A stretch of 64,000 bases of DNA from positions 1 to 64,000 of the forward strand of contig JAFRFB010000003.1 of NCBI GenBank assembly GCA_017434555.1, in the 5' to 3' direction. Position numbers and translations under genes: made by a program. The notes below the pieces were generated by a model. The model did no database searches, was not told the origin of the DNA, and saw only the letters and a program-made list of their open reading frames with translations. Of this stretch, positions 1 to 59,523 are shown one piece after another (position 1 is the first letter of the stretch; each line of letters starts with the position of its first letter). Source of the DNA: Methanobrevibacter sp. (GTDB lineage Archaea > Methanobacteriota > Methanobacteria > Methanobacteriales > Methanobacteriaceae).

Positions 1-2
1 AA

Positions 3-158
3 ATCGGAGAGCTGGTAATGGAGCATCTTGAAAAGACGGATCAAATCGCTTATGTCCGTTTTGCTTCTGTGTATCGGCAGTTTGCAGATGTGCAGAACTT
101 TATGCAGGAACTGCAGCGGATCATGGCCAACAATAAGTCGGAAGAGGCGAAGAAGTAA
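3..158 (+). CDS. nrdR: NrdR C-terminal fragment (5' truncated by window edge)
   Basis: The reading frame open from base 3 encodes about 51 residues containing ELVMEHL followed by [13 protein letters not shown] recognise this as the end of the ATP-cone domain of NrdR, the bacterial repressor of ribonucleotide reductase genes. Only the C-terminus is present. Codons such as CGG, CTG, CAG and GCC and a GC content near one half contrast sharply with everything downstream, which is very AT-rich. The gene has no functional link to the viral genes that follow. It is most likely a chimeric-contig end or the flank of an integration or transfer junction. The identity is fairly sure; the biological meaning of its position is not. 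Confidence 0.75.
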
Positions 159-882: not shown

Positions 883-1203
883 TATTTTTCATGGGAATAT
901 GCAATCCCTTTAAATATTAAAGCTAATTTCAATATTGTCACTAGTATTGTTTCAATTATAATAACTCCAACAGTTACACTCATTGACAACTGGGTTTATA
1001 TAACTGATTTAAATAATCAAAAAATATATTTTATAGAAATTACTGGAGTTGAATCTGATGGTTCAACCATGTTACTTAATAGAGCCACTACTTATGGGGC
1101 TGATAGGTCAATGTATATGTCTACATTTGTTTCTGCAATAGTTCTAGTTAAATATCAGTCAAAAGATGGAATAACCTTATTTAATGAAATTCTTGAAAAA
1201 TAA
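883..1203 (+). CDS. silent adhesin C-terminal cassette A (no start codon)
   Basis: An open frame of 106 codons plus stop begins at the recombination-site-like sequence TTTTCATGGGAATATGC. It reads YFSWEYAIPLNIKANF, aligning with YSWEHTSTLYIHAKYY at the constant/variable junction of the expressed adhesin on the other strand. There is no start codon, promoter or ribosome binding site of its own. It ends TLFNEILEK followed by TAA, directly before cassette B. The rest has no recognisable domain and is shorter than cassettes B and C. I read it as a stored alternative C-terminus that becomes translatable only after inversion places it next to the constant region at 2713-3663. It could instead be a decayed cassette. 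Confidence 0.65.
   Translation, partial: YFSWEYAIPLNIKANFNIVTSIVSIIITPTVTLIDNWVYITDLNNQKIYFIEITGVESDGSTMLLNRATTYGADRSMYMSTFVSAIVLVKYQSKDGITLFNEILEK
886..902 (+). repeat. locus 1 crossover-site copy, cassette A
   Basis: TTTTCATGGGAATATGC matches the 17-bp site TATTCATGGGAACATAC at 1208-1224 at 13 positions, including the contiguous core TTCATGGGAA. It lies exactly at the 5' end of cassette A, in the orientation opposite to the copy in the expressed gene (2696-2712). Confidence 0.6.
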
Positions 1204-1207
1204 ATAA

Positions 1208-1224
1208 TATTCATGGGAACATAC
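1208..1224 (+). repeat. locus 1 crossover site, cassette B (inverted repeat partner of 2696-2712)
   Basis: TATTCATGGGAACATAC is identical over 17 bp to the reverse complement of 2696-2712. Both copies sit at the same codon position of homologous protein sequence (YSWEHT), so inversion between them preserves the reading frame. Confidence 0.8.
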
Positions 1225-2062
1225 AAACCATTTAAATATTCATGTAAATTATGATATCAATTTATTAAGATGTATAGATTTAAATATCATAGATTGTATT
1301 ATTATGAAATTCACTGGTAATGAATTCATTAGTTATAATACAAACCCATTTACGTATACTGGAATAATAACTATTGATTGGGGGGATAACACAATAGAAA
1401 CATATGCTGGTGGAGCATTAACTCACACCTATGCTTCAAATGATAATTATACTATAATAATAACTGGAAATATTAGTGCGATAAATAACGCAACCAGATA
1501 TTCAGATAGTACCCTCACAGCAGGTGTTTTTAGAGTAAATGGATTAAACTATGTGAGCCTACCATCAAGTATTATAAGTATAGGTGACCTTAGTTTTTAC
1601 AATAATACTGATTTAACAGAAATTTATCTATCCAAAAACATCATGACTTTAGGTGGTAATTTGTTTAGGGGTTGTACTAATCTGTCTGAGATTATATTCC
1701 CACCAAATGTTACAGAAATACCAAAGTATTGTTGTTATAACTGTAGTAATTTAATTAGTGTTGTGTTGCCACCTAACTTAATTACTTTTACAGACTATAA
1801 CTGTTTTTCTAATTGTGATCTCCATAGCCTAGATGTTCCTAAAACAGTTACAAACATTAAGTATTCCTATTTTAATAATAATAGTAATTTAACAAATGTT
1901 ATTTTAAATTGGGATACTTCTGAAACAATATTAACCTTAGGTGATTCTAACTGGAACAATAACGTCTGTTCTACAACTATATTTAGCATACCTCCAAATA
2001 CCACCATGTTATATTATAAGAAGGGATATTCTTTAAGCCAATTAATTGAAAGAGAAGTTTAG
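1208..2062 (+). CDS. silent adhesin C-terminal cassette B, BspA-type LRR (no start codon at its true 5' end)
   Basis: From the crossover site the frame reads YSWEHTNHLNIHVNYD and continues without a stop for 284 codons. It aligns with the expressed C-terminus (YSWEHTSTLYIHAKYY). The internal ATG at 1304 is probably not a real start because the cassette is open upstream to the repeat. Content in order: end of an Ig-like strand; a PKD-like stretch (TIDWGDNTIETY, LTHTY); then BspA-type leucine-rich repeats (LTEIYLSKNI, LSEIIFPPNV, LISVVLPPNL, LHSLDVPKTV); then a tail ending IPPNTTMLYYKKGYSLSQLI that matches the end of the expressed protein. LRR_5/BspA repeats are typical of adhesins, so this is likely an alternative receptor-binding tip. 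It faces the expressed gene tail to tail. Confidence 0.8.
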   Translation, partial: YSWEHTNHLNIHVNYDINLLRCIDLNIIDCIIMKFTGNEFISYNTNPFTYTGIITIDWGDNTIETYAGGALTHTYASNDNYTIIITGNISAINNATRYSDSTLTAGVFRVNGLNYVSLPSSIISIGDLSFYNNTDLTEIYLSKNIMTLGGNLFRGCTNLSEIIFPPNVTEIPKYCCYNCSNLISVVLPPNLITFTDYNCFSNCDLHSLDVPKTVTNIKYSYFNNNSNLTNVILNWDTSETILTLGDSNWNNNVCSTTIFSIPPNTTMLYYKKGYSLSQLIEREV

Positions 2063-2082
2063 TTTTTGAAACATCATTTTTT

Positions 2083-3663
2083 TTATGATGATGCTTCAAC
2101 TAACTTACTAGCAGGGTATCCTTTTGCAGTGTATAAATCAGCAGTATTCGGTGGAATAGTAAAAGAGCCAATACTATTACTATTATATGCCCATCGATCA
2201 GAGTATTGCAGGATAGTTGATGAATCAGTCCAATTAAGAATTACATTAGCGTAATTACCCATTAATGCTTTTTCACCAATACTTATGACAGTATTAGGAA
2301 TATTTATACTAGTTACATTTGCACATCCCATGAGAGCATATGTTCCTATACTGGTTATTGCAGGGAAACTAACAGTATTTATAGTACATGCAAGCTGGGT
2401 ATTGTATGAATCATAGAATAATGCATTATTTGTACTACAAGATTTTATACTTTTAATATTCCCGATTATTTCTATGGTATAATTATCACTAGTATTATAT
2501 GTATGACTTATTGAATTGTCCTCATATGTATCTGTATTTCCATCACTCCAATCAATTATAACAACACCAGAGTGCCTTATTTTATTGTTTAATATTAATT
2601 TATTTCCTGTGAATTCTATTATGAAACTGATAATATTAACGGATAAATTACTACTAACAAAATCATAGTATTTTGCGTGAATATATAAAGTAGACGTATG
2701 TTCCCATGAATAAGATACGTTGCATGTACCATTACTATCTGTGGTTGCTGTTCCGATGATATTATTGTCGTCGTCGATGAAGTCTATGTTTTTACCGGTG
2801 ATTGGGTTGTCGTTTTCATCGGTGAGTGTTGCTGTGAATGTTACTAGTTCGTTAACGTTGGCTGTGTTTTTATCACTGGTTAATGTGAGGTTTATTGGGT
2901 TTACGGTTAAGTTAACTGTGTTGCTGGTACAGGTTTGGTAGTCGTCGGTTCCTTCGAATACTGCAGTTAATACTTGACTTCCACTGGTGGTTGGTATGTG
3001 GTTGTAAGTGTATGCTCCGTTACTATCTGTGTATATGGTTGTTATTAGTTGGTTGCCGTTGTAGATTTTTACTGGTGCATTTTTCAAGTAACCTTCCAAG
3101 TCAATATTAGCTACTGTTTCATCATCTTTATCAGCTTCTAATACTCCACTTAGGGTGCATGTGTCTCCTACGTAGCATGTATTTTGTGTGCTTGTTAGGT
3201 TTATATGTGTGTATACGTCTATTCCTCCGACACTTGCTTCAATATCTAATACTTTGTTTATTAATGTTGTTAGTCCTTCATTTGCTGATGCTGTTACTCC
3301 TTTGGTTTCTAAGTTAGTTGTTAATAATTGTCCGGCAGTGTAAATGTTTTGTGCATGACTGTTATTATTGATGTTTAATGTTATTGTGTTACTTCTATGT
3401 TGTGTTTCGTTTTGTTCTTCTGTTTGTATTAGTAGGTTTATTGTTCCGGTGGTTTGTGGGTAGTATTTGTATATTAGTATGCCGTTTGTGATGTTATCGG
3501 TTAGGTCTTCTATTAGTGTTAATGTTTCATTAGTTATACTGTATAGTTTGTATTCTGTGTAGGTATTGGTGAGTTCTGAGACATCACAGATTAGTGTTAC
3601 TGCGTGTCCTAGTTTTAAAGTTGATATATCATTGTTTAAGGTTATGTCGGTTAGTATTGTCAT
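2083..3663 (-). CDS. expressed adhesin, locus 1 (Ig-like domains with PKD/LRR tip)
   Basis: A 526-residue protein without signal peptide, which suits a virion fibre rather than a host surface protein. The N-terminal part (KLGHAVTLICDVSELTNTY, then YKYYPQTTG, then NNNSHAQNIY) is clearly homologous to the adhesin at 47567. Next come two Ig-like beta-sandwich repeats around residues 150-250 and 255-330. From about residue 317 the variable cassette C carries a PKD-like region (VIIDWSDGNTDTY) and BspA-type LRRs (VTSINIPNTVISIGEKAL). The ATG follows AAAGGAGAAC. It is transcribed against nearly all neighbours and diverges from the HNH operon across the operator-paired region 3664-4209. The 17-bp site at 2696-2712 separates constant from variable parts. 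Confidence 0.85.
   Translation of the reverse strand: MTILTDITLNNDISTLKLGHAVTLICDVSELTNTYTEYKLYSITNETLTLIEDLTDNITNGILIYKYYPQTTGTINLLIQTEEQNETQHRSNTITLNINNNSHAQNIYTAGQLLTTNLETKGVTASANEGLTTLINKVLDIEASVGGIDVYTHINLTSTQNTCYVGDTCTLSGVLEADKDDETVANIDLEGYLKNAPVKIYNGNQLITTIYTDSNGAYTYNHIPTTSGSQVLTAVFEGTDDYQTCTSNTVNLTVNPINLTLTSDKNTANVNELVTFTATLTDENDNPITGKNIDFIDDDNNIIGTATTDSNGTCNVSYSWEHTSTLYIHAKYYDFVSSNLSVNIISFIIEFTGNKLILNNKIRHSGVVIIDWSDGNTDTYEDNSISHTYNTSDNYTIEIIGNIKSIKSCSTNNALFYDSYNTQLACTINTVSFPAITSIGTYALMGCANVTSINIPNTVISIGEKALMGNYANVILNWTDSSTILQYSDRWAYNSNSIGSFTIPPNTADLYTAKGYPASKLVEASS
2696..2712 (-). repeat. locus 1 crossover site inside the expressed adhesin
   Basis: Read on the minus strand this is TATTCATGGGAACATAC, identical to 1208-1224 on the plus strand. 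It encodes YSWEHT at the end of an Ig-like domain, at about residue 317 of the adhesin. Upstream flank on the coding strand: CAACGTATCTTA, a 12-mer also present at the start of the silent cassette of locus 2. Confidence 0.8.
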
Positions 3664-3699
3664 ATTTTTTGTTCTCCTTTTGTAGGGGGTTATTTTTGT

Positions 3700-3718
3700 G
3701 AGTATTTAATAAATACTT
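3700..3718. promoter_or_regulatory. operator palindrome 1 (RAGTATTnnnnnAATACTY)
   Basis: GAGTATT-TAATA-AATACTT is an almost perfect 19-bp inverted repeat. Its partner 3841-3859 lies exactly 141 bp away, as in the second copy of the element near 11.2 kb. Confidence 0.65.
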
Positions 3719-3840
3719 GTTGTTTTATCTATAGTTTTGGTATGATACTTGACAGTAAAGTTTATATATTATTTGTTTATGGGTAAGAGTCAATATTGAT
3801 AATATCCTATTGTTAATAGTAAAACAACTGGATATTATGT

Positions 3841-3859
3841 GAGTATTTATTAAATACTC
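3841..3859. promoter_or_regulatory. operator palindrome 2 (RAGTATTnnnnnAATACTY)
   Basis: GAGTATT-TATTA-AATACTC is a perfect inverted repeat with 9-bp arms around one central base. It is preceded by GGATATTATGT, matching the flank GGGATTATGT of palindrome 4 (11295-11313). Confidence 0.7.
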
Positions 3860-4209
3860 ATATTTTAGTGGAGTTTCGTTTTTTGTAGTGTATTGTTTTT
3901 CTTTTTATTATTATTTTTTTAACTTTTTAACCATAAAATTTATATAGTAGTTTAGTATATATTATAATTGTAGGATGAAAAAAAATAAATTGGTTGAATT
4001 GAAAAATTAAAAACAAATCTTTTAAGTTCAAAAATATAAAATTTAATAATTCTTTCTCCAAATAATCAAAGGATTAAAATTATTTTTTCAATTTAAATAA
4101 CCATTTTATTTAACCTTCCTACAAGAAAAAGATAAAACCCAAAAAGAAGGAGTGTGAAGACAATAAAACACAATAAACTTTTAAAAATAATAGGAGAATG
4201 TGATGCGCT

Positions 4210-4575
4210 ATGAGTTACATTGCACAAATAGAAAACAATATTCATGGAGGCAAATACAATTGGAGATTCCAATCAGTAGCTCAAGAATTACTGCAAGCTG
4301 AAGGTAAATGTCAAGTCTGTGGATCCAAGCAGGATTTGGAAGTGCATCATATAGTGCACGGTAAAGTATACGATAAAAGCTACACTAATCCCTCAAATAT
4401 TATAGTATTATGTAGGGATTGTCATACACGATATCACAGGGCATATGATACAGTGAATGCTAAAACTTTCATTGAGTTTGTTAAACGTAGAAATCATAGT
4501 ACATTACAAAGTAAAGTGAATAAACTAACACATGAGAATAAATTATTACAAAAAAGAGTAGACTTAAGGATGTGA
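4210..4575 (+). CDS. HNH endonuclease
   Basis: A 121-residue protein with an HNH zinc-finger nuclease domain. CQVCGSKQDLEVHHIVHG supplies the first CxxC pair and the HH of the active site, then NPSNIIVLCRDCHTRYH supplies the Asn, the second CxxC and the final His. The metal-dependent nuclease presumably nicks or cuts DNA; phage HNH enzymes near packaging genes can assist terminase. The start ATG lies after AGGAGAATGTGATGCGCT. It is followed by an overlapping coiled-coil gene, and a second HNH gene (5195) ends the same operon. The two HNH proteins share N-terminal pattern GKY/GRY-x-[WY]-x-FQ but differ widely elsewhere. Confidence 0.88.
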   Translation: MSYIAQIENNIHGGKYNWRFQSVAQELLQAEGKCQVCGSKQDLEVHHIVHGKVYDKSYTNPSNIIVLCRDCHTRYHRAYDTVNAKTFIEFVKRRNHSTLQSKVNKLTHENKLLQKRVDLRM

Positions 4576-4580
4576 AACGA

Positions 4581-4916
4581 ATGACTATTACTGATTTAAT
4601 GGAGAAAGAAATAGAAACTAAAAAGAAGTTAACCAGTGAATTACAGGGTAAATTAGATGAATTAACCGAATTAGAATTGAATATTGCATGTGAGAAAAAT
4701 AAGATTTTGAATGATCCTTTGATTGGTGAGAAAATTGAGGGTCGTGTAACTGATAAATCCAAGGATGCATTTGTTGCTAAAAGTTTAGAAAAAGAAAACA
4801 ATAAAAAAACTTGGTTGCAGAATGATATAAGTAAAATTAAGCAGGATATTGGTTTGTGTGATGATACTATTCGTTTGTATAAATATGTTATTCGTGAGAA
4901 GGAGTTGGGTGTATGA
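4581..4916 (+). CDS. coiled-coil hypothetical protein
   Basis: A 111-residue charged protein predicted to form two long helices (heptad-like KLTSELQGKLDELTELELNI, then DISKIKQDIGLCDDTIRLYK). ATG 4581 is preferred over GTG 4572 because AAGGATGTG (4567-4575) serves as ribosome binding site. The end, IKQDIGLCDDTIRL, resembles LKRELNLCDDKIKL in the protein at 56170, so the two are probably paralogues in separate operons. It lies between the HNH gene and 4913, with a 4-nt ATGA-type overlap to the latter. Role unknown. Confidence 0.7.
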   Translation: MTITDLMEKEIETKKKLTSELQGKLDELTELELNIACEKNKILNDPLIGEKIEGRVTDKSKDAFVAKSLEKENNKKTWLQNDISKIKQDIGLCDDTIRLYKYVIREKELGV

Positions 4917-5185
4917 TTGATTGGATTCATGTTTGCTGTAATACTATTGAAAATATTAGTATTAGTTTGTATGTTAATAATAATAAGAAATCTTATCAGC
5001 GAATAAGTATGCTTAATGAGGATACAGGTGAAAGGATTCAAAAGGATATTATTGCACCTGTTGATTTCCACACAGTAATCTCCACAATATTATATAGTAC
5101 AAGTTTGGATGAGGTTATTACTGGTTTTAATGATACATGGGCAAGTAATGTTCTAGAGGAAATGATAAATAATATTAAAAATTAA
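4913..5185 (+). CDS. hypothetical protein of the HNH operon
   Basis: A 90-residue protein beginning MIDWIHVCCNTIENIS, overlapping the upstream gene by 4 nt (ATGA), which implies translational coupling. It has an N-terminal beta-rich half and a helical C-terminal half (TVISTILYSTSLDEVI, VLEEMINNIK). No family recognised. Position between two HNH nuclease genes in one operon is the only functional hint. Confidence 0.68.
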   Translation: MIDWIHVCCNTIENISISLYVNNNKKSYQRISMLNEDTGERIQKDIIAPVDFHTVISTILYSTSLDEVITGFNDTWASNVLEEMINNIKN

Positions 5186-5194
5186 TGGGGAAAA

Positions 5195-5755
5195 TTGAGT
5201 AGACAAATACATAAAGGACGATACATCTACGAGTTCCAACACCTCGTACCCAGATTATTACGGGAGAATAAGGAATGTTTTATATGTGGGTCATCTGAGC
5301 ATTTGGGTCCGCATCATTTGAAAAAGGTTAAACCCAGTAAAGAGTTATATGCTAACGAGGATAATATTGTGATTATTTGCAAAACATGTCATAATCGGTA
5401 TCATAATCAGTATAAACGGGTTAATCCTAAAACATTCCTTTTATTTGCTCGTAAAATGTGGAATAAACAAGGAGATTCTTTGAAAAGGGAACGTAATATG
5501 TATCGTAATAAGTATAAGAAATGTAATAAAATTGTAGTGGAGGATAAAATGAATGCATTAATGATGAAACAGATTAGGGGTTTGCCAGTTATTGAATCTT
5601 ATAGTGATTTTGTTGATGCTTATAATGATCATTTGGTTAGTGTTGCTAGTATTATTCAGGTGATTGGTGATGCTAGGTATAGGCGTTATCGTAAAGAAGC
5701 TTTGGGTAAAGGTGATATTCAGCAGAGACCTTATGGTTTAAGATTCGGACACTAA
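5195..5755 (+). CDS. HNH endonuclease, second copy
   Basis: A 186-residue protein with TTG start after GGGGAAAA. The HNH core is CFICGSSEHLGPHHLKK, then NEDNIVIICKTCHNRYHNQY, giving two CxxC zinc-binding pairs and the His-His and Asn-His catalytic elements. The C-terminal extension (about residues 95-186) is basic in the middle (KRERNMYRNKYKKC) and absent from the first HNH protein at 4210. The genes flank two small unknown genes. Such nucleases can be homing enzymes, packaging helpers or restriction-type enzymes; the sequence does not decide between these. Confidence 0.87.
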   Translation: MSRQIHKGRYIYEFQHLVPRLLRENKECFICGSSEHLGPHHLKKVKPSKELYANEDNIVIICKTCHNRYHNQYKRVNPKTFLLFARKMWNKQGDSLKRERNMYRNKYKKCNKIVVEDKMNALMMKQIRGLPVIESYSDFVDAYNDHLVSVASIIQVIGDARYRRYRKEALGKGDIQQRPYGLRFGH

Positions 5756-6105
5756 ATTATTATGTTTTTTTTGCCGATGATACATTTTACTAAAAAAAAT
5801 AGTGTTTTTTTTTTAGTTTTTTTTTATTATTTTATTGGATTAATGATAGCTTTTAAAATATAATATGATTGATTTATAAATTTAAATAAAAACGATTTTC
5901 AGAAAAACATATGTCTTAATAAATTCCGATTAAAATATTCAAGCTTATAATCCTGAAATAATAAAAAATTGAACTCTTTAGGGTGTGTGGAGGCTTATTT
6001 TTTTCTTTTTTCATGGTCTGCATTTATATATGATGTCGACCAATATAATAATAGATGAATACAAATGTATTCATATTAACCCAAAAAGAAAAGGAGACAA
6101 TTAAA
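5756..6105 (+). promoter_or_regulatory. AT-rich intergenic region with promoter and leader of the 6.1 kb operon
   Basis: 350 bp. It begins with T-rich tracts that could end the HNH operon, then shows nothing recognisable until the promoter. TATA box TTTATATATG is at 6023-6032, an 18-bp palindrome at 6056-6073 (TGAATACA-AA-TGTATTCA) and the leader AACCCAAAAAGAAAAGGAG at 6078-6096. Confidence 0.6.
6056..6073. promoter_or_regulatory. operator-like palindrome downstream of TATA box
   Basis: TGAATACA-AA-TGTATTCA starts 33 bp after the start of the TATA box, i.e. at or just after the expected transcription start. An almost identical palindrome has the same 33-bp offset at 6938-6955. Confidence 0.65.
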
Positions 6106-6306
6106 ATGAACTTAAAAGAATTCGCAAACGAAATAAGAAACTCAACTGAATTAATCGTAACTGAATATGATAACATAATCAAAGTAGAAGCATTAGAATT
6201 AGAATTAAACCACGAATTAGAAGAAGTACTCGCAAATGTTCAATTCATGGATAATCTCAAATTAGAAAAACTTGACGTATTATCCGCAGTAATAAGTGAA
6301 GTATGA
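6106..6306 (+). CDS. small acidic hypothetical protein
   Basis: A 66-residue acidic, helical protein (MNLKEFANEIRNSTELI). The upstream in-frame ATG at 6055 lies inside the palindrome and before the AAAAGGAGAC ribosome binding site, so ATG 6106 is chosen. It is the first gene of an operon that parallels 258-842: an acidic helical protein followed by one or two small mixed alpha/beta proteins. Codon use in this short gene is rich in AAC, ATC and CTC, unlike the T-rich codons of the following two genes. No known family. Confidence 0.7.
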   Translation: MNLKEFANEIRNSTELIVTEYDNIIKVEALELELNHELEEVLANVQFMDNLKLEKLDVLSAVISEV

Positions 6307-6354
6307 ATAATCTTCTACATTTTATTTTTTTTTATATTAGGGTGTGTGATTTGT

Positions 6355-6660
6355 ATGATTGATTGGGAAACTGAAGAAAAAATATTAAACCTTAGAAATG
6401 AAATCAGCCGTGAATTAAAATTATCTGCAATGAGTTATACTGACTTTAATCGTTTTATTGTAATTGAAGATGGTGATGGTTTGGAGGAGTTAGTTCAGGT
6501 GAAAGAGGTTACTTTTGAGGCTGAACCTAATACACGGGTTGGTGCTGTTGAGAGGATTATACATGATTTCACTGAGAGGTTGGGTTGGGAGTATGTTAGT
6601 ACTTTCAAGCAGTCTTGGGTTGATTCTTGTATTTTGTATCATATTTATTTTAAATTTTAA
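6355..6660 (+). CDS. hypothetical protein
   Basis: A 101-residue protein starting MIDWETEEKILNLRNEIS; ATG 6355 is preferred to GTG 6346 because AGGGTGTG precedes it. It has an acidic N-terminal helix, a central VIEDGDGLEEL turn, and an aromatic C-terminus (WEYVSTFKQSW, LYHIYFKF). Same operon as 6106 and 6691. Function not recognised. Confidence 0.65.
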   Translation: MIDWETEEKILNLRNEISRELKLSAMSYTDFNRFIVIEDGDGLEELVQVKEVTFEAEPNTRVGAVERIIHDFTERLGWEYVSTFKQSWVDSCILYHIYFKF

Positions 6661-6690
6661 CTTTCCTTTTTTTTGGTGGTGGTTATGGTT

Positions 6691-6855
6691 ATGTTTTCTT
6701 GTAAGCAGTGTTATTTTAATGTGGTTGATGATGCTTGGTGGACTGTTGATGAGTATGGTGTTTGTTGGGGTATTGGTTTGACTCCTGAGGAGTCTATAAG
6801 TGAGGCGGAGTTTTTAGGTTTGGATTGTAGTGATGTTTTTATTGATTATTCTTAA
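6691..6855 (+). CDS. small hypothetical protein
   Basis: A 54-residue protein beginning MFSCKQCYFNVVDDAWW. GGTGGTGG at 6675-6682 places the ribosome binding site before ATG 6691 rather than the upstream GTG or ATG codons. The CxxC and the pattern WTVDEYGVCWGIG, EESISEAEFLGLD, DVFIDYS suggest a compact strand-strand-helix fold. It is reminiscent of the C-terminal half of the protein at 546-842. Third gene of its operon. Function unknown. Confidence 0.6.
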   Translation: MFSCKQCYFNVVDDAWWTVDEYGVCWGIGLTPEESISEAEFLGLDCSDVFIDYS

Positions 6856-6904
6856 ATTCTTTTTTTCTTTTTATTAGTGTTTTTTTATTTTTTATACCAT
6901 AAAG

Positions 6905-6913
6905 TTTATATAG
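6905..6913 (+). promoter_or_regulatory. TATA box of the 6.99 kb operon
   Basis: TTTATATAG within CCATAAAGTTTATATAGTAG. Very similar sequences stand at 3931-3950 and 56056-56075. The palindrome at 6938 begins 33 bp downstream. Confidence 0.65.
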
Positions 6914-6937
6914 TAGTAAAACTAATATAAGTATAGA

Positions 6938-6955
6938 TGAATACAATTGTATTCA
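6938..6955. promoter_or_regulatory. operator-like palindrome downstream of TATA box
   Basis: TGAATACAATTGTATTCA is a perfect 18-bp inverted repeat. It differs from 6056-6073 by one central base and keeps the same distance to its TATA box, and it is followed by AAACCCAAAAAAAATAAGAGGAG, the shared leader. The two operons probably share one DNA-binding regulator. Confidence 0.68.
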
Positions 6956-6991
6956 ACTAAACCCAAAAAAAATAAGAGGAGACAAGAAAAA

Positions 6992-7132
6992 ATGAACACA
7001 AAAAATTTAACTACAAACGAATGCGGAAACTGCGGACACCACGACGGATGCATCTGTATAAACATCCAAAGCCCAAACTACGGCAACGATGAAATAATCG
7101 TCGACTGCGAATACTTTGAGGGAGGCTACTAA
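6992..7132 (+). CDS. Cys-rich miniprotein
   Basis: A 46-residue protein with five Cys (NECGNCGHHDGCICIN and VDCEYF). The spacing suggests a small zinc-binding or disulphide-stabilised fold. ATG 6992 follows AGAGGAGACAAG; the upstream in-frame ATG at 6947 lies in the operator palindrome and is unlikely. Codons are unusually C-rich (GGA AAC TGC GGA CAC CAC). It is followed after 2 nt by the gene at 7135. Two other Cys-rich miniproteins occur at 7614 and 44290. Function unknown. Confidence 0.65.
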   Translation: MNTKNLTTNECGNCGHHDGCICINIQSPNYGNDEIIVDCEYFEGGY

Positions 7133-7134
7133 AT

Positions 7135-7575
7135 ATGATCCCTCAAAACTTTAATAATTGTCATAGTAAATGGGGAGCACATCCAGAATACACTTACTAC
7201 ACCAGACACTACGGAGAAATCATCAAAGTACATGAGGACGGTTCATGTGATATTAAAACAAAACCACTATTAAGTTATGAAGAAGGTGAAATCATCCGTA
7301 ATGTCAACTTATTTTATGTTGACCCGTGGAATGAAGACCGCAGAGACATGATCATAGACCGTCTTAAAAAAAATATACGAGTTGGTTGTTGGGTGGAATT
7401 AATGGAGCAACGCAACCTATTCTATATCTACACATGGGAGAAAAAATATCGCTATGGAGAATTTAAGTATGTTTTCAAAAGCGGTAGTCCACATCAAGGA
7501 CCACGTAAAAGATTCTTAATTGAACGAGTCTGGACAAGTGAAGAAAAAATGAATAATGGAAGATGGAATCACTAA
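7135..7575 (+). CDS. hypothetical basic/aromatic protein
   Basis: A 146-residue protein rich in Trp, Tyr, His and basic residues (HPEYTYYTRHYGEI, WEKKYRYGEFKYVF, GPRKRFLIERVW). The mix of beta-type segments suggests a small barrel that could bind nucleic acid, but I recognise no family. It starts 2 nt after the Cys-rich gene and is probably cotranscribed with it from the promoter at 6905. Confidence 0.68.
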   Translation: MIPQNFNNCHSKWGAHPEYTYYTRHYGEIIKVHEDGSCDIKTKPLLSYEEGEIIRNVNLFYVDPWNEDRRDMIIDRLKKNIRVGCWVELMEQRNLFYIYTWEKKYRYGEFKYVFKSGSPHQGPRKRFLIERVWTSEEKMNNGRWNH

Positions 7576-7613
7576 ACTAAAAATAGTGCAAAAATAATAA
7601 TGGGGATAGTGTT

Positions 7614-7742
7614 ATGGTTTGTAAATATTGTGCAACTTGTGAAAAAGAAAATATTGATGATATCTGTTTACATGCAGACAGAGACTGCTACGATGATTGC
7701 AGTTTCTGTTTAATTCATGATTATTGTAAATACGAGGGGTGA
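7614..7742 (+). CDS. Cys-rich miniprotein (8 Cys in 42 residues)
   Basis: A short gene with ATG after TGGGGATAGTGTT, encoding 42 residues with eight cysteines in four close groups (VCKYCATC, ICLH, DCYDDCSFC, YCKY). The regular CxxC spacing suggests binding of one or two zinc ions or an Fe-S type cluster. It lies between 7135 and 7751; the stop overlaps the region that serves as ribosome binding site for the next gene. No family recognised. Confidence 0.6.
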   Translation: MVCKYCATCEKENIDDICLHADRDCYDDCSFCLIHDYCKYEG

Positions 7743-7750
7743 TAGAATTG

Positions 7751-8044
7751 ATGAGGTTTGAGGAAGAAATTTTTGGTTGTATGGAGGATTATCCGTTAAA
7801 AACGGATACTCCACCAGAAGACATTAATGTAAATGATACTGCTTTTTTAGTAAATAGTAACTGTGAATTTAGTTATGATAATATTACTGGTTATTTTCAA
7901 GAGGATTTATTATATTGTATTATTTGTGATTTAGAGTTCATTGACTCTGATTTATCCGAATATAGAGTGGAGAAATCCTGTAATGGAGGCTGTTATGCTT
8001 ATGCAAGAGCAAGAATTAAAAGAATTAAAGAAATCACATACTAA
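7751..8044 (+). CDS. hypothetical acidic protein
   Basis: A 97-residue acidic protein starting MRFEEEIFGCMEDYPLK. ATG 7751 is preferred over the GTG at 7739 because GAGGGGTGA (7734-7742) is then well placed. It contains six Cys (FGCM, SNCEF, LYCIICDLEF, KSCNGGCYAY). The C-terminus overlaps the next gene by about 50 nt in another frame, suggesting translational coupling. Function unknown. Confidence 0.62.
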   Translation: MRFEEEIFGCMEDYPLKTDTPPEDINVNDTAFLVNSNCEFSYDNITGYFQEDLLYCIICDLEFIDSDLSEYRVEKSCNGGCYAYARARIKRIKEITY

Positions 8045-8846
8045 TATTTTAAGAGTACAACAGGATAATGATGGTGTGTGGAATGTTGGATCATATACTA
8101 ATAAAGACTATGATTTAAGCTTATTACATGCAACACGATTAGCTAGTAAACAATATAATCATGATTGTATTATAGTTATGGAGTATTTTAATGGTTATTA
8201 TCGTAAATATAGTTCTGATGGTGAGTTATTAAACGAATATTATAATAATACTGGTGATGGTGTTAATGATTATAAGGTGGATGAGATTGTTACTGGTTGT
8301 CCTGTAAGTGAAACTCCTTGTTATTTCCCATTTTGCACTAATAATTTAAGTTGTAATTTTATGCCAACTAATGTTGTGATTGAAGATAATGATAATGTGG
8401 ATGAAATCATAACCTCTCCAGTTAACGGGGAATTAGTAGAACCAGTTAAAGAAGAAAAAGAGGTAGAAAAGGTTGGTTGTATGACTAGTGTTAAACAATA
8501 CTTTAATTACCAAGAGGAATTAACTCTTGTTAGAAGAAAATTAGATGATATAATATATGAGCAAAAAGAGCTAGGAAAAGAAATAAAAACAGATATAAGA
8601 ACTGTATTCACTGCATATGATATACCTAATTTAACTTATGATGTTGAATTAACAGGTAAAGGGATAAGAATAAAAATGTATTCAAAGAAATATAATAATG
8701 ATGAATTAATAACTCCAATTAACACAGATTTATTATTGAAATTAAACAAGTTAATAGGTATGGATGCATTGTTAAATATTCAAAGTGAACGTAAAGTTGC
8801 TGGTAATCATGTTCATGTTTTAGAATTAATATATGAATTAGAATAA
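7995..8846 (+). CDS. hypothetical protein, two-part
   Basis: About 283 residues. The frame is open upstream into the preceding gene, but GGAGG at 7985-7989 points to a start at ATG 7995 or 8001. Residues 10-80 (VWNVGSYTNKDYDLSL, CIIVMEYFNGYY) form one small domain. A stretch with six Cys follows (CPVSETPCYFPFCTNNLSC), then an acidic linker. The C-terminal domain has a coiled-coil start (EELTLVRRKLDDIIYEQKEL) and a beta-rich end. Not assigned to a known family. Confidence 0.65.
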   Translation: MLMQEQELKELKKSHTNILRVQQDNDGVWNVGSYTNKDYDLSLLHATRLASKQYNHDCIIVMEYFNGYYRKYSSDGELLNEYYNNTGDGVNDYKVDEIVTGCPVSETPCYFPFCTNNLSCNFMPTNVVIEDNDNVDEIITSPVNGELVEPVKEEKEVEKVGCMTSVKQYFNYQEELTLVRRKLDDIIYEQKELGKEIKTDIRTVFTAYDIPNLTYDVELTGKGIRIKMYSKKYNNDELITPINTDLLLKLNKLIGMDALLNIQSERKVAGNHVHVLELIYELE

Positions 8847-8870
8847 AATGGGGATGGTGTTTAAAGTTTT

Positions 8871-9221
8871 ATGGTTAGTCCAAATATTAGTTTCAGAGTA
8901 GAAGATGAATTCAAACAATTCATTGATAATAAAGCATTAGAATTAGGAATAACACGTGGTGAATTATTAAGGAATATTGTTTATAATATACTTAATTATC
9001 CAGTAACTGATAAACCATTCAAAACATTAACAGTGGGTAAGTTAATGGAATTATTAGAACCTTTACCCTGTGAGTTACCGTTAATAGCTTATACTGAAGA
9101 AGCTGATTATGCTTTGGATGAATTGAAATTATTAGGTTTAATTGGTGGTTTGAAATTAACTAAATTTGATAAAAATATAGATAAAATTGAATGGGAATTA
9201 ACTGATTTAATAAAAAAATAA
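8871..9221 (+). CDS. ribbon-helix-helix-like DNA-binding protein
   Basis: A 116-residue protein. The N-terminus NISFRVEDEFKQFIDNKALE followed by LGITRGELLRNIVYNIL has the strand-helix-turn-helix arrangement of ribbon-helix-helix regulators (hydrophobic-polar strand, helix with FKQFID, GITRGEL turn). The rest is an acidic small domain. RHH dimers bind palindromic operators, and several palindromes lie in nearby promoters, but no site can be assigned to it. Three further RHH-like proteins occur at 55626, 56684 and 57566. Confidence 0.65.
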   Translation: MVSPNISFRVEDEFKQFIDNKALELGITRGELLRNIVYNILNYPVTDKPFKTLTVGKLMELLEPLPCELPLIAYTEEADYALDELKLLGLIGGLKLTKFDKNIDKIEWELTDLIKK

Positions 9222-9232
9222 TAGTGTTAATT

Positions 9233-9304
9233 GTGAATAAGGATAAAATTTTAAAAAACAAGACTCCTGAGTTAGATAAGTTCCGTCATAAAAGATTTCA
9301 TTAA
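9233..9304 (+). CDS. possible 23-residue peptide
   Basis: GTG-initiated short frame (MNKDKILKNKTPELDKFRHK). It is basic and starts 11 nt after the preceding stop without a clear ribosome binding site. Listed only because it fills the gap; it may be chance. Confidence 0.25.
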   Translation: MNKDKILKNKTPELDKFRHKRFH

Positions 9305-9420
9305 TGATTTAAGAGTATTATTTTTAAAATCTTGTCAGGTGATGTTTAAAGGATTAGGTTAAAATAGTATTAATCACTAATAATTATTATATATACTGTT
9401 AATATGATGGTGATTAATTT

Positions 9421-10203
9421 ATGAGTTTATTTAATCGTGGAGATAAAAAAACACCTGAAGAAAAATATCAGGAATTATATAATACTAATCAGGGTAATAT
9501 TGAAAATGCGGATTATGTTGTACGGTTAGATGTTGCTGTTGGTCAGTATGGTAATGATGATGTTGTTGCTGGTGCAATGATGGGTGAAACAGGTAAACTT
9601 ATAGCTATGAGTAAATATGGTGATACTAAATGGAAGAATACTACTATGGCTATGAAACATGATGGTGTTATTATTCATTATACTGGTGAAATTGTTTTAT
9701 ACTCTGATATGAGGGAGATTCGAATATCCTCTTTGGATAAATCTTTGTATGGTTATAAACAATTAATTTTTGTAACTAATAATGGGAATTATATATTTAA
9801 AGGTGATGCTGTTTTTATTGATGTGATTACTAATCTTATCGTTGTTTCCCGTGACCGTTATAATGGTTGGATCAGTGATGGTTTGATTAGTGCTGGTGAA
9901 AATTTATCTGATGATGAGTGGACTAAATTGATTAATGGTGAACCATTAAAACGTAAAAATACAAACAATAATAATGAGGGTAATAGTGATTTAGATAGGT
10001 TATTACGTGCTGGTGAATTACATGAACGTGGTTTATTATCAGATGAGGAATTTGAGGATATTAAAAATAAATTATTAAATAAGAATAATACTGAATCTGA
10101 TATTAATGAAGTTGAAAGTCCGGGTATGTTTTGTCCAAGTTGTGGTGTTGAAATAAAAGAGGAATATAAATTCTGTATTAACTGTGGACACGAATTAAAA
10201 TAA
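9421..10203 (+). CDS. SHOCT-domain and zinc-ribbon protein with PH-like N-terminus
   Basis: A 260-residue protein. Residues about 25-150 form a beta-rich domain (DGVIIHYTGEIVLYSDM, LIFVTNNGNYIFKGDA) resembling the bacterial PH-like fold. A SHOCT domain follows near residues 195-225 (LLRAGELHERGLLSDEEF), then a C-terminal zinc ribbon (FCPSCGVEIKEEYKFCINCG). This architecture is common in bacteria and archaea, where SHOCT is thought to mediate oligomerisation. It has its own promoter (TTATATATAC near 9387) and GGTGATTAATTT before ATG. It converges with the methyltransferase gene, overlapping by 9 nt at the ends. Role in the virus unknown. Confidence 0.78.
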   Translation: MSLFNRGDKKTPEEKYQELYNTNQGNIENADYVVRLDVAVGQYGNDDVVAGAMMGETGKLIAMSKYGDTKWKNTTMAMKHDGVIIHYTGEIVLYSDMREIRISSLDKSLYGYKQLIFVTNNGNYIFKGDAVFIDVITNLIVVSRDRYNGWISDGLISAGENLSDDEWTKLINGEPLKRKNTNNNNEGNSDLDRLLRAGELHERGLLSDEEFEDIKNKLLNKNNTESDINEVESPGMFCPSCGVEIKEEYKFCINCGHELK

Positions 10204-11136
10204 TCTTGTTTGATTAGTAAATATTCTTTTTTCAGCTATTTCAAAATAATCCTTATTTAATTCAATTCCAATAAACCTCCGGTTAAGGTTACGACAAGCA
10301 ACACCAGTACTGCCACTGCCCATGGTGAAGTCTAATACGAGGTCATTTTCATCAGTATATGTTTCGATTAGGTCTTCTAGTAGGTCTACTGGTTTTTCTG
10401 TTGGGTGGTATTTGTTATATGATTTGCGATATTGTAATACATTGCTTTTGAATTTATGTCCTTTTTTGAGCTTAAATTTGAGCTTAAATTTGAGATTAAT
10501 ATCAGATAACTCTTCATATGGTTTAAAACAATTTAATTCATCAATATGATAAACATTTATTAATTCATTATAAGTTTCTTCTGTGCATAAACTAAACTGA
10601 CTACTTCCAATACGATAAAAAAAATGTTCTGCTCTACGATGACCTAATCTTCGTTCAATATCTTTATATGTAACATCTAATTCTTTTAATAATCTTTGAG
10701 CATATATTCTTAATGGATGTGTATTGTCAGAGTCATGTTTTTTACGGAACACACTTAAATCTTCAACATAGGATACTGGTGCTTTTTTACATGATAAGCT
10801 ATTTGCAAAATGGTCTTTAAACCAATAATAAGGATATAAGAATGGTAGATTTTCTGGTTTGTATTGTCTTAAATAACTGGTGTATGGTTCTTGGCTGAAT
10901 AGTATTAGATTTCCATTTACTCTTAATAGTTTTTCACAGCATTTAAACATTTGGTCTGTTGGTATATTATTGTCCCATTCTGTTGTACTGTTTTTCCAAC
11001 CGTCTAGATTTAATCCTTTGACGGTTCCGTATGGTGGATCGGTTAGTATTAGGTCTACTTTTGTTTTTTCATTGATTAGTTTTTGCATTTCTTCGATGCA
11101 TTCGCCTTGGATTAATCTTATTTGTGTTGTTTGCAC
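10195..11136 (-). CDS. DNA methyltransferase (beta-class, N6-adenine or N4-cytosine)
   Basis: A 313-residue enzyme. Catalytic motif IV DPPYG stands near residue 35 and the S-adenosylmethionine motif I DFTMGSGSTG near residue 275, the IV-before-I order of beta-class amino-methyltransferases. YHPTEKPVDLLEDLI is the conserved segment before motif I. The central part (about 90-230) is likely target recognition and includes KFKLKFKLKKG, coded by two and a half copies of a 12-bp repeat (10468-10494). No restriction partner is adjacent, so it is an orphan enzyme, possibly protecting viral DNA from host restriction. It is read divergently from the membrane-protein operon at 11475. Confidence 0.9.
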   Translation of the reverse strand: MQTTQIRLIQGECIEEMQKLINEKTKVDLILTDPPYGTVKGLNLDGWKNSTTEWDNNIPTDQMFKCCEKLLRVNGNLILFSQEPYTSYLRQYKPENLPFLYPYYWFKDHFANSLSCKKAPVSYVEDLSVFRKKHDSDNTHPLRIYAQRLLKELDVTYKDIERRLGHRRAEHFFYRIGSSQFSLCTEETYNELINVYHIDELNCFKPYEELSDINLKFKLKFKLKKGHKFKSNVLQYRKSYNKYHPTEKPVDLLEDLIETYTDENDLVLDFTMGSGSTGVACRNLNRRFIGIELNKDYFEIAEKRIFTNQTRLF

Positions 11137-11153
11137 TTTATTCTTTTTTCTGC

Positions 11154-11172
11154 AAGTATTGTTAAAATACTT
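11154..11172. promoter_or_regulatory. operator palindrome 3 (RAGTATTnnnnnAATACTY)
   Basis: AAGTATT-GTTAA-AATACTT, 7-bp perfect arms. Same consensus as the palindromes near 3.7-3.86 kb. Confidence 0.65.
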
Positions 11173-11294
11173 ATTGAAATATCCTTATGTTAATGTGGAT
11201 ATTTGATGGAAAAGCTTAAATAGTAGTTTTCTATGGTGAGAGTTAATATTGAAAAATACTATTATGTTACATATAAAAGTGAGGGGGATTATGT

Positions 11295-11313
11295 GAGTAT
11301 TTTAACAATACTC
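11295..11313. promoter_or_regulatory. operator palindrome 4 (RAGTATTnnnnnAATACTY)
   Basis: GAGTATT-TTAAC-AATACTC, 7-bp perfect arms, preceded by GGATTATGT as palindrome 2 is by GATATTATGT. Confidence 0.65.
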
Positions 11314-11474
11314 ATACCCTTGGAAAATTTAATACAATATTCTTTTTTTGATGGGTAAGAGTGGATAGTGAAGAAAAGGAAAAAAAATTATATAATTTTT
11401 TTTTTTGAGGGTTTTTATATTAATTCATTCTTTTTTTTAAATAATATTTTAAGAGTGAGTGTAATAATAGAACG

Positions 11475-11831
11475 ATGGTTGAAACATATAAATATAAATC
11501 AAAAGCAGCTACTGCTATCTCTTTTTTAGCTGCATTAATTGCTTATCTTGGTAAAGATGGTTTGGCACAATATATCCCACCGGAATATGCTAGTTTAATT
11601 CCTATTTTAGTGTTTGCTGCGGGGTATGTTATAACACAGGAAACTGAGAATACTCGTGTTGCTGTTGCAGAGCAAATGGTGCATGAGGAATATGAAAACA
11701 ATACTAATAATACTAATGATGATGTTGGTGTTGTTGTTAATTTAACTTTAGATGGTGAAGATGTCATCTCCGATACTAATGCTGATGCTGATGTTGATGA
11801 TGGTGTTGGGGATGATGAAGATATTGCATAA
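11475..11831 (+). CDS. small membrane protein, holin-like
   Basis: A 118-residue protein with two predicted membrane segments (residues about 11-28, AATAISFLAALIAYLG, and 40-57, ASLIPILVFAAGYVITQ). A very acidic tail follows, ending in Asp/Gly repeats. Size, topology and grouping with two more small membrane proteins resemble holin cassettes, which permeabilise the membrane to release an endolysin. The endoisopeptidase is far away at 54 kb, so the lysis role is an inference. Read divergently from the methyltransferase across the operator pair. Confidence 0.68.
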   Translation: MVETYKYKSKAATAISFLAALIAYLGKDGLAQYIPPEYASLIPILVFAAGYVITQETENTRVAVAEQMVHEEYENNTNNTNDDVGVVVNLTLDGEDVISDTNADADVDDGVGDDEDIA

Positions 11832-12041: not shown

Positions 12042-12050
12042 AAATATATT

Positions 12051-47566: not shown

Positions 47567-49186
47567 TTGAGTATTAATAATGATTTAACTTTAATAAATG
47601 ATAATAATAATTTTAAGTTAGGACACAGTGTAACTTTCGTATGTGATGTCTCTAATTTAACCAATACTTATGAAGAATTCAAATTATATAATATAGTTAA
47701 TAATGAATTAACTGAATTAGTAGATGTTAGTGATAGTGTTACTAATGGATTATTAATATATAAATACTATCCACAAACCACTGGAATAATAAATATAGTA
47801 CTACAAACAGAAGAAGTATCTGAAATTATACATCAAAGTAACACAATAACATTAACTGTAAATAATAATAGTCATGCACAGAATATTTACAATGCTAATG
47901 CAGCATTAGTATCTAACTTAACCAGTATGGGAGTAATAGGAGCATCCGTTAATGATGGTTTAGCTACTAATATTGCTAAAGTGTTGAGTGTTCCACCAAC
48001 ACAACGTGGAATAGAACTAGACACTAGTATAACATGCACCTGCCCAAGTAGTGCATCAGTCGGCGTACCATTCAATATAACAGGAGTATTAACATCCAGT
48101 TATGATGACACAAGCCAAAGTAATGTTGATATGCACGGTGGAGAAATACAAGGAGCAACCATTGAAATCTACAATGGTAACACTTTACTAGGAACCTGCA
48201 CAACCAACATCGATGGAGAATACAGTTACTCATACACACCAACCGTGACTGGGAATTTAAGCATACACGCCATCTATGATTCAGCAAACGACTTCTACGA
48301 AGACAGTGCAAGTAACAGTAACAGTGTAAGCGTACATGTACCTGTATCAAGCGTAACATTAACCGCCACTGTCTGTGATAGTAACAATCAAGCAATTGGC
48401 AGTCCTTCCGATTCTGCTATTCTCTCATATGTTGATGGTGAGTCAGCACTTTTAACCGCAACAGTATTAGACAGTAACAACGACCCGGTTGTTGGAAAAA
48501 CAGTCAGTTTCGATATTGTTGACCATGATGCTGGTACTGTTATCTCGAATATTGGAACTGCGACTACTGATTCGTCCGGTATATGTTCCGTATATTACTA
48601 CTCAAAAGATGCAGATGTTTTAAATATAAAATGTTCTTGTAACAATATTGAATCATCATCAGTACAAATCGAAGATTGTTGGAAATATGACTCATTAACC
48701 ACAAATAACAATCGATTAAGTGTTACCAAAGGTTCTGCTTCACTCACATACTCCAATGATGGAGTAAAGATAAAAGGAACTGCTACAACAGACACATTAA
48801 TAAAATATCTTGATTTAACACTCCCAAATAAATATAGTGTTGAAATAGACATCAATTCATTTGTAACAACTGATTATACATCAGAATGTGTAGTTGAAAA
48901 TGTATCTGTTGTTCGAGATGTAACTTACTCAAAAATCGGATATTACAAATACAATATTACTGACAGTTCTGCTCCAATTATAGAGTATAATCTTGAGAAT
49001 TGGGATTGGATAAATGGGGATACTTTAAAATATGAATTTGACTCATCAACACAATCTATGAAGATTTATCAAAATGGAGTATTGAAAGGTACAATAACTA
49101 ATGTTACACAGAACAATACTTTAAGATTTAAAACCCACAATGGAAGATGGACAGTATTCAAGAATTTAAAAATCAAGTCTTTATAG
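47567..49186 (+). CDS. expressed adhesin, locus 2 (Ig-like domains, variable tip)
   Basis: A 539-residue protein from TTG 47567 after GGAGGGGG. Residues 1-140 (KLGHSVTFVCDVSNLTNTY, YKYYPQTTG, NNNSHAQNIY) are homologous to the N-terminus of adhesin 1. Two Ig-like domains follow (TCPSSASVGVPFNITGVLTS; VTLTATVCDSNNQAIGSPSD). At about residues 341-350 lies the inverted-repeat site. The variable tip after it (YYYSKDADVLNIKCSC, then a lectin-like jelly-roll KYLDLTLPNKYSVEIDINSF and TLKYEFDSSTQSMKIYQNG) resembles the silent cassette coded on the opposite strand. No signal peptide, consistent with a virion protein. Confidence 0.85.
   Translation: MSINNDLTLINDNNNFKLGHSVTFVCDVSNLTNTYEEFKLYNIVNNELTELVDVSDSVTNGLLIYKYYPQTTGIINIVLQTEEVSEIIHQSNTITLTVNNNSHAQNIYNANAALVSNLTSMGVIGASVNDGLATNIAKVLSVPPTQRGIELDTSITCTCPSSASVGVPFNITGVLTSSYDDTSQSNVDMHGGEIQGATIEIYNGNTLLGTCTTNIDGEYSYSYTPTVTGNLSIHAIYDSANDFYEDSASNSNSVSVHVPVSSVTLTATVCDSNNQAIGSPSDSAILSYVDGESALLTATVLDSNNDPVVGKTVSFDIVDHDAGTVISNIGTATTDSSGICSVYYYSKDADVLNIKCSCNNIESSSVQIEDCWKYDSLTTNNNRLSVTKGSASLTYSNDGVKIKGTATTDTLIKYLDLTLPNKYSVEIDINSFVTTDYTSECVVENVSVVRDVTYSKIGYYKYNITDSSAPIIEYNLENWDWINGDTLKYEFDSSTQSMKIYQNGVLKGTITNVTQNNTLRFKTHNGRWTVFKNLKIKSL
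48589..48614 (+). repeat. locus 2 crossover site in the expressed adhesin
   Basis: 26 bp beginning CGTAT and containing TTACTACTCAAAAGAT. It matches the reverse complement of 49732-49757 at 24 of 26 positions. It codes for YYYSKD at the constant/variable junction. Confidence 0.82.
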
Positions 49187-49757
49187 TTTTGTAATTACCA
49201 TATTCTTGATTGTTACATTTCTATTTGAATATAATTTGATTTTAAATCCACTATGATTACTGCTATCGGCTTGTTTTTGATACTTTTGAGTATTGTTCAG
49301 ATAACAAGTTACAACTCCATTGTTTACAATAAACTTTAAAGTATCTCCAACCTTTAATATAGGAGAAGTAGATGTAACATTGCCTCCTAAATCGACAATT
49401 CTCCCCCAATTTAGATTATTCCCAGAAGTTTCACAAAATATTCCTTCACAACTAATCCCTGCACTATACTTATTACTTATTATAATCCCAGTTATTTCAA
49501 CACTTAATTCATAATTAGTAGGCATTGGAATATCTAAACTTGCAAAGTGGTCGCTATTGATTCCATTTCCAGTTATTGAAACTCCATTGCTTGAATGAGA
49601 GATGGATATTCCAGTTGTTGATGGTGTGAACATATCGTGTGAGGTTGTGAGAGAGTTATTATACCATTTGTTTGTTATTGCTACACTTGAACTTTCGATG
49701 TTGTTACAACTTGCTTTAATATATAAATCTCCTGTATCTTTTGAGTAGTAAGATACG
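49181..49757 (-). CDS. silent adhesin C-terminal cassette (locus 2), no start codon at its true 5' end
   Basis: Read from the repeat at 49757 the frame gives VSYYSKDTGDLYIKASCNNI, then ESSSVAITNKW, and runs 192 codons to a stop that overlaps the stop of the expressed adhesin tail to tail (49181-49186). The ATG at 49633 is internal. The cassette has the same layout as the expressed tip (Ig strand end, then a jelly-roll: DIPMPTNYELSVEITGI, DTLKFIVNNGVVTCYLNNTQ) but only moderate identity. No promoter or ribosome binding site precedes it. I read it as the stored alternative tip; inversion of 48589-49757 would exchange the two. Confidence 0.8.
49732..49757 (-). repeat. locus 2 crossover site at the silent cassette
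   Basis: Inverted copy of 48589-48614 with two mismatches; the 16-bp core TTACTACTCAAAAGAT is identical. Just upstream on the minus strand is AACAACGTATCTTA, which matches the flank of the locus 1 site. Confidence 0.82.
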
Positions 49758-58371: not shown

Positions 58372-59523
58372 ATGATTGAGGAGACAGATGAATTACTAAT
58401 AAAAGAGATATCAATCTCAAGAAACCTTTCAGAAAGAACAGAATTACTATACCGACTAGTACTAAGAAAATACATAAAATTCAACAAAATGTCCTTAACT
58501 GAAATGTTAAAAGAAGCTGAAAAAGAAGAAGATGAACAAATACCATGGAAAAGAAGAACAATACGAAAAAGATTACTGAACTTCAGAACCTACCTATACA
58601 ATAATTATATGCTAAGTACAGCAAAAATGAATTTCAGTAAAATATTAACAGTATACAAACACTTCGAAATAGAACTCCATGAATTACCAACTATAAGTGA
58701 AAAACAAGCTGAAGAAAGTATTATTCGATATAATGATTTACCTACAAAAGAGGAAATCCGTGAAGCATTGAAAATAACAACACCAATGCACCGAGCAATC
58801 ATACTATTTTTCTCCAGCAGTGGCTGTGCATCTGCAGAAACTCTAGGATTAACAATATCTGACTTCATTAAATCAGTAGAAGAATACTATAAATCTGATG
58901 ATATATACGAGATAATACATAACTTATACGGTCGTGATGATGTTGTACCTTGTTTTGAAATCAAAAGACGTAAAACAGGGAAAGTTTATTATGCATTCTG
59001 CAGTCCAGAAGCATTTAATGAAATATGCTCATACCTTTTAACACGTAAAGGATTAAGGAATAGTGATAGATTATTCAAAGTCACACAATTACATTTAATG
59101 CAATTGTTCCGTGATGTGAACAATACTTTAGGTTTAGGTACTGTTGGTAAAAATAATTATGTGAAGTTTAGAGCTCATATGCTCCGTAAATTTCATGCTA
59201 GTACATTATATAATGCGGGTATGACTTTAGATACTGTTAATGATTTACAAGGTAAATCTAAAAATAAGACTGATAGTAGTTATTTTATGGAGGATCCTGC
59301 GAAGTTGAAAGCTAAGTATATGGAGCATATGGGTGCATTGACAATTAATTTAGAAGTTAAACATTTGGATGTTAAAACTGTTGAATTTGTCCGTTTAGAA
59401 AATGAGTTGGTTCGTAAAACAGAAGAAGTTTCTAATTTAACTAGCCGTATGGATGTTTTGGAGAAGATTGTTTCTGATAATCTTAGTGATGAAGAGGTTA
59501 AAGTTATTGATAAGTATTTTTAA
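58372..59523 (+). CDS. int: tyrosine recombinase / integrase
   Basis: A 383-residue protein: N-terminal SAM-like core-binding domain (about 1-120), then the catalytic domain. RRKTGKVYYAF carries the active-site Lys; FRAHMLRKFHASTLYNAGM carries the H-x-x-R box; DSSYFMEDPAKLKAKYMEHM contains the candidate catalytic Tyr. The first Arg, usually in a G-x-R-x-x-E motif, is not evident: the matching place reads SGCASAETLGLT. The family performs integration and excision and could also catalyse the cassette inversions proposed here. A C-terminal coiled coil follows (LENELVRKTEEVSNLTSRMD). Confidence 0.85.
   Translation: MIEETDELLIKEISISRNLSERTELLYRLVLRKYIKFNKMSLTEMLKEAEKEEDEQIPWKRRTIRKRLLNFRTYLYNNYMLSTAKMNFSKILTVYKHFEIELHELPTISEKQAEESIIRYNDLPTKEEIREALKITTPMHRAIILFFSSSGCASAETLGLTISDFIKSVEEYYKSDDIYEIIHNLYGRDDVVPCFEIKRRKTGKVYYAFCSPEAFNEICSYLLTRKGLRNSDRLFKVTQLHLMQLFRDVNNTLGLGTVGKNNYVKFRAHMLRKFHASTLYNAGMTLDTVNDLQGKSKNKTDSSYFMEDPAKLKAKYMEHMGALTINLEVKHLDVKTVEFVRLENELVRKTEEVSNLTSRMDVLEKIVSDNLSDEEVKVIDKYF

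Follow-up and report, generated by a model that had tools for sequence, protein, structure and literature searches.

The gin and cin systems of phages Mu and P1, which switch host range, rely on serine invertases that work with an enhancer on 26-bp sites and are encoded next to them. The shufflon of plasmid R64 joins a constant part to several alternative C-terminal cassettes, arranged in convergent pairs and provided with short sites, through the tyrosine recombinase Rci. Among archaeal viruses, inversion of tail-fibre genes has been established in phiCh1 and also occurs in phiH1 and ChaoS9 (PMC6471424, PMC3950731, PMC8651126). A survey of 209 read sets recovered no inversions in its six archaea (PMC5903667). 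For viruses of methanogens, no report of tail-fibre inversion was found in the literature searched, the two most relevant papers lying outside it.

The window analyzed here, a stretch of 64,000 nucleotides, covers positions 1 to 64,000 of a contig 98,209 bp long. This contig is a tailed archaeal virus, with a terminase (13459), a portal (15357), a tape measure (28049) and a baseplate protein (35722) as landmarks, and it encodes a protein with pseudomurein-binding repeats (54251). Its host is taken to be a rumen-type Methanobrevibacter; the assembly that contains the window, although rated 99% complete, gave no match to the MCR_alpha and archaeal SSU models, and this assignment therefore rests on the pseudomurein-binding repeats and on related MAGs. 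The last ~100 bp of the contig (98105-98209) are GC-rich, look bacterial and represent, like the left edge, a foreign end generated by an assembly chimera.

Near the left end lies an adhesin locus (locus 1) which is very probably a shufflon-like inversion switch of the virion adhesin tip, the likeliest enzyme being the tyrosine recombinase R2. With Mu and P1 it shares convergent alternative fibre C-termini in a presumed invertible segment. Its constant part, convergent alternative C-terminal cassettes, short sites and candidate tyrosine recombinase recall R64, from which it differs in that the R64 shufflon varies a plasmid pilus tip and uses one shared site sequence, whereas locus 1 holds one or two segments only. 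The haloviruses phiCh1, phiH1 and ChaoS9, with their recombinase Int1, are likewise tailed archaeal viruses, in which inversion by a tyrosine recombinase alters the expressed fibre, as we infer here. However, the phiCh1-type module carries its recombinase gene between two fibre genes, whereas in the present virus the putative recombinase is encoded at a distance, the tip cassettes are start-less, there are two loci and the host is a methanogen. The coordinates of the features are collected in the table.

Table. Features of the two adhesin loci, the recombinases and a related tip archive (window positions unless indicated).
Feature	Position	Strand	Remarks
Bacterial nrdR, C-terminal end	1..157	+	Assembly chimera at contig edge, not viral
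Stored tip cassette A	886..1203	+	Starts at 14/17 site; 105 open codons
Stored tip cassette B	1208..2062	+	Starts at 17/17 site; 284 open codons; LRR_5 (E 1.7e-33)
Active tip T1	2083..2712	-	209 codons; PKD-like and BspA-type LRR_5
Candidate recombination site TATTCATGGGAACATAC	2696..2712	-	Constant/variable junction; codes YSWEH(T)
Constant part of adhesin 1	2713..3663	-	N-terminal region of ~150 aa common with adhesin 2, then Ig-like Big_3_5 and Big_1
Ribosome-binding site of adhesin 1 (GGAG)	3674..3677	-	10 nt before ATG; absent from the cassettes
Adhesin 1 promoter region	3701..3858		17-bp palindromes 3701-3717 and 3842-3858, starts 141 bp apart
Adhesin 2	47567..49186	+	Active tip T2 begins at 48590; constant part homologous to that of adhesin 1; in tail module
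Second-locus site CGTATATTACTACTCAAAAGAT	48589..48610	+	Codes VYYYSKD
Stored tip B2	49181..49757	-	Homologous to T2 (E 1e-19); start-less; open over 191 codons
Inverted copy of second-locus site	49736..49757	-	21/22
R1	58372..59523	+	Integrase
R3	Contig 95146-95961 (L005 15146-15961)		Tyrosine-recombinase-like, 271 aa, without N-terminal domain; adjoins R2; conserved in G047
R2	Contig 95958-97013, outside window		Non-integrase tyrosine recombinase
Tip archive of G047 contig C71	Contig 15144-31056 (L183, which is 12001-32000: 3144-19056)		One expressed and one further tip on the same strand, 31 tandem start-less tips on the other

The first-pass annotation of this DNA had placed the same 17 bp in inverted orientation at the constant/variable junction of adhesin 1 (2696-2712, minus strand) and at the start of cassette B (1208-1224, plus strand), and inspection of the sequence confirmed both positions. 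It counted 13 matches of 17 in a third copy at the head of cassette A (886-902, plus strand); the recount gives 14, with three mismatches. In shuffled sequence, such sites occurred 0.43 times on average, and three of them were reached in one of 100 shuffles. The shared frame proposed for the three sites was found again, and the predicted YSWE(H/Y) reading holds for adhesin 1 and cassette B (YSWEHT) and fails for cassette A (FSWEY). Likewise, the homology said to follow each site begins, in T1 and B, with the first site residue and extends over their whole length (E 3e-29; 31% identity with gaps). In cassette A it is limited to about the first 17 residues (E 0.011), beyond which the cassette diverges. 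Cassette A gave no match in a Pfam search. Upstream of the cassette B site, which is abutted by a TAA codon (1205-1207), the homology is absent, and the 3' ends of T1 and B face each other tail to tail with 20 bp between them. At the DNA level, T1 and B match at every position of the 17-bp site, and their identity averages about 56% in the aligned codons; differences number 110 at third and 73 at second codon positions, which indicates that both evolve as protein.

Also in line with the earlier reading, neither cassette has a start codon at its beginning or a ribosome-binding site; the ATG at 1304 is internal to cassette B and has no recognisable ribosome site. No recombinase frame was found between 886 and 3663. 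A scan of the whole contig (98,209 bp) for inverted repeats with homologous open frames pointing inward gave strong matches at locus 1 and at the second locus only. Locus 1 consists of one perfect segment (B/T1) plus cassette A with its 14/17 site, and the variation between tips is one of whole-domain cassettes, not of point changes.

In the mechanism that we propose, a recombinase, most likely the non-integrase tyrosine recombinase R2, would recombine the two inverted sites (2696-2712 and 1208-1224) and turn round the DNA between them, the copy at 886-902 perhaps being used less often. The expressed constant part, with its promoter, would become fused in frame to the other tip, and the displaced tip would be kept start-less on the opposite strand. 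In an AlphaFold model of adhesin 1, the site falls between strands 313-319 and 325-332 (pLDDT 74-91 over residues 261-340). At this point the final Ig-like domain still lacks its closing strand(s), so each cassette would supply the end of this domain together with a new binding domain. The position of the site, in the last Ig-like domain, is equivalent in both adhesins. The adhesin 1 model is poor beyond residue 344 and no fold is claimed for the locus 1 tip.

No signal peptide was apparent in adhesin 1, which, together with the N-terminal region that it has in common with the tail-module adhesin 2, favours a virion protein rather than a surface protein of the lysogen. The tips presumably bind host surface receptors; binding to a receptor or glycan appears likely from the BspA-type LRRs predicted in T1 and B and from the lectin-like model matches of the locus 2 tips described below. 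A TATA-like element, AATATATAAAC, lies at 3760-3770 (minus strand) between the two palindromes of the adhesin 1 promoter region. A similar pair of 17-bp palindromes (11155-11171 and 11296-11312), also 141 bp apart, was noticed upstream of a minus-strand gene for an N4/N6 DNA methyltransferase. The equal spacing suggests that adhesin 1 and the methyltransferase are regulated together, and the pairs are likely to be a shared operator pair.

At the second locus, the constant part of adhesin 2 is 43% identical to that of adhesin 1, and the site sequences of the two loci differ. The locus 2 tips were modelled as a beta sandwich with moderate confidence (pLDDT 67, pTM 0.68), and galectin-like and CBM66 lectin folds are among the best PDB matches of this model. 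Compared by sequence with solved structures, the same tips gave nothing significant.

Locus 1 is known from a single assembly in the collections searched. Close copies of either adhesin constant part occur nowhere else among the 139 family genomes searched, its own included, and adhesin queries against IMG/VR and phage records gave no match. The comparison of related contigs for an alternative orientation, suggested in the first-pass annotation, yielded no second copy of locus 1 in the 138 other family genomes or in IMG/VR, and no inverted junction was seen. An exact-pattern scan of IMG/VR for TWTTCATGGGAAYATRC returned 23 contigs, each matching once. Judged by terminase, the nearest relatives are a provirus in G047 (Methanobrevibacter sp. 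RGIG2231, from goat) and the IMG/VR virus G147 (IMGVR_UViG_3300031998_000038; 99.6 kb), whose TerL is 80% identical. G147 has an adhesin locus (56576-60857; L246/L247) in the same position and orientation as locus 1, in which one expressed and five stored tips alternate in orientation and form three convergent segments. With these three segments it stands nearer to the R64 shufflon than locus 1 does. Its tip site, GTATATTACTAC, is that of the second locus of the present virus, and its stored tip at 59631-60200 is homologous to B2 (E 4e-17).

Turnover of tips at the sites was observed in two IMG/VR viruses, L221 and L224, which are 91% identical across the 4.2 kb between their two tip loci; identity stops at the tip site on both sides, and the sequences beyond are unrelated. 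The largest collection was found on contig C71 of G047, where a tail fibre is followed by 32 more tips, 31 of them oppositely oriented, to give 33 tips in all. Each cassette of this array is open over 136-159 codons and begins with ATAAAAGATA, a site which in many cases also provides the stop of the cassette before it. The start-less layout with intact frames recurs in G147, G053, L221-L226 and the 33-tip array, and many related rumen viruses appear, from their sequences, to carry the same kind of tip system. The L226 array comprises about 11 tips, of which two are inverted and most share the strand of the expressed fibre, and lies about 2 kb from an R2-type recombinase (2259-8004 and 10001-11035). 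Part of the G053 virus contig is duplicated; its copies, compared in search of an alternative junction, are identical and give no information. Tip pairs of high identity, with one member expressed and the other stored in a different virus, were also sought, and only distant pairs were found.

A search for tyrosine recombinases recovered three on the contig (R1, R2 and R3), and 49 recombinases were placed in a maximum-likelihood tree. R1 groups with the integrases of MSTV1 and vir080 (support 92/88) and is regarded as the integrase because an R1-type gene abuts host genes in the related G047 provirus. R2 belongs to a separate clade of 29 members (99/99), together with recombinases flanked by inverted hsdS or pglX-like pairs, and within it to a viral subclade (90/95) with G053, G062, G048 and G047. 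The R2 clade carries K in the GxA[KR]xETL motif where most integrases have R. Its members lie beside inverted hsdS pairs in Methanobrevibacter and Methanosphaera genomes (L071, L072, L087, L090), at phase-variable loci which concern host restriction specificity, whereas the present loci concern viral adhesin tips. Others lie beside pglX-like methyltransferase genes (L074, L076-L081), and several contigs break at the hsdS/pglX loci.

In the viruses, R2 of G053 and of G062 adjoins an endolysin and tip cassettes (within 10 kb), and tip cassettes lie within 10 kb of an R2 homologue in five of eight IMG/VR viruses, with two loci in L221, L222 and L224. None were detected near R2 in L223 and L227 (IMG/VR) or in G048 (outside IMG/VR). 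In G047, the junction between provirus and host lies at the R1 end, so that the ends of the present contig should be contiguous in the virus; no att core shared between the present virus and G047 was found. A distance of about 1.8 kb between R2 and cassette A presupposes a genome that is circular across these ends, both of which carry foreign sequence.

Locus 1 may be read without any inversion. Cassettes A and B, which lack starts and ribosome sites, could be dead duplicates, that is pseudogene debris of adhesin tips. The chance of remaining open, derived from shuffles, is about 2e-11 for the 284 codons of B and 2e-4 for the 105 codons of A, and this, with the third-position bias between T1 and B and the intact-frame layout in the relatives, makes debris very unlikely. 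Just as hard to sustain is the view that B is an ordinary gene starting at ATG 1304, from which an in-frame product of 252 aa would indeed arise, that A is a small gene and that the site is a conserved protein motif: the homology and the open frame of B extend back to 1208, exactly at the stop codon abutting the site, and a product from 1304, besides having no ribosome site, would miss the segment that completes the Ig-like domain. A third possibility, improbable though less so than these two, is that the stored tips act as donors in homologous recombination or gene conversion, as happens in pilin variation, with no dedicated inversion enzyme, the short shared stretch being merely the best-conserved place. 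The homology of the tips along their length would suit such a process, and the G047 array, with 31 cassettes in one orientation, is less mixed than free inversion predicts. Yet identity at locus 1 is confined to the 17-bp site abutting the cassette start, the remaining ~56% being a poor substrate, and the alternating convergent tips of G147 and the linked recombinases fit inversion.

If inversion is real, it might still be performed by the integrase R1 or a host recombinase instead of R2, which we consider somewhat unlikely. The second locus is about 8.6 kb away from R1, G147 keeps stored tips and has no close R2 homologue, and the two loci of the present virus use different sites, all of which would fit another enzyme. 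R2, on the other hand, is conserved in G047 as a second recombinase away from the integration end and falls in a clade tied to inverted gene pairs and tip cassettes. Taken together, the anatomy of the locus, the syntenic six-tip relative, the turnover of tips at the sites and the linked recombinase clade strongly support the tip switch of the first-pass annotation, and we infer that inversion occurs in the present virus and that R2 performs it. The third state then envisaged, which would use the cassette A site (14/17), is plausible and weaker, and represents the weakest part of this inversion reading.

Switches of this kind are already known from Mu/P1, R64 and phiCh1; what looks new is the lineage, the presence of two loci in one virus and the large archives of tips, a view open to revision. 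The chances are about even that the tailed viruses of ruminant methanogens share a widespread system of tip switching, in some cases at two loci in one virus and with as many as 33 tips per array, driven by a lineage of tyrosine recombinases which also flips hsdS/pglX-like defence genes of the host, the same class of enzyme then serving receptor and defence switching. Viruses of rumen methanogens are candidates for methane control, and their host choice is largely unknown. If the switch operates as proposed, one virus genome would encode several switchable receptor specificities, so that host range could not be read from one assembled genome and a host clone would not stay resistant for long. 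Receptor switching in the virus and restriction/pglX-type switching in the host would also be linked, in a testable way, through one recombinase lineage.

The terminase on contig C108 of G047 (L152, ~12600-13630; 945-aa frame) carries an insert of ~340 codons relative to that of the present virus, possibly an intein, and a HINT/homing-endonuclease-like gene was noticed at 1426-2457 of the same stretch.
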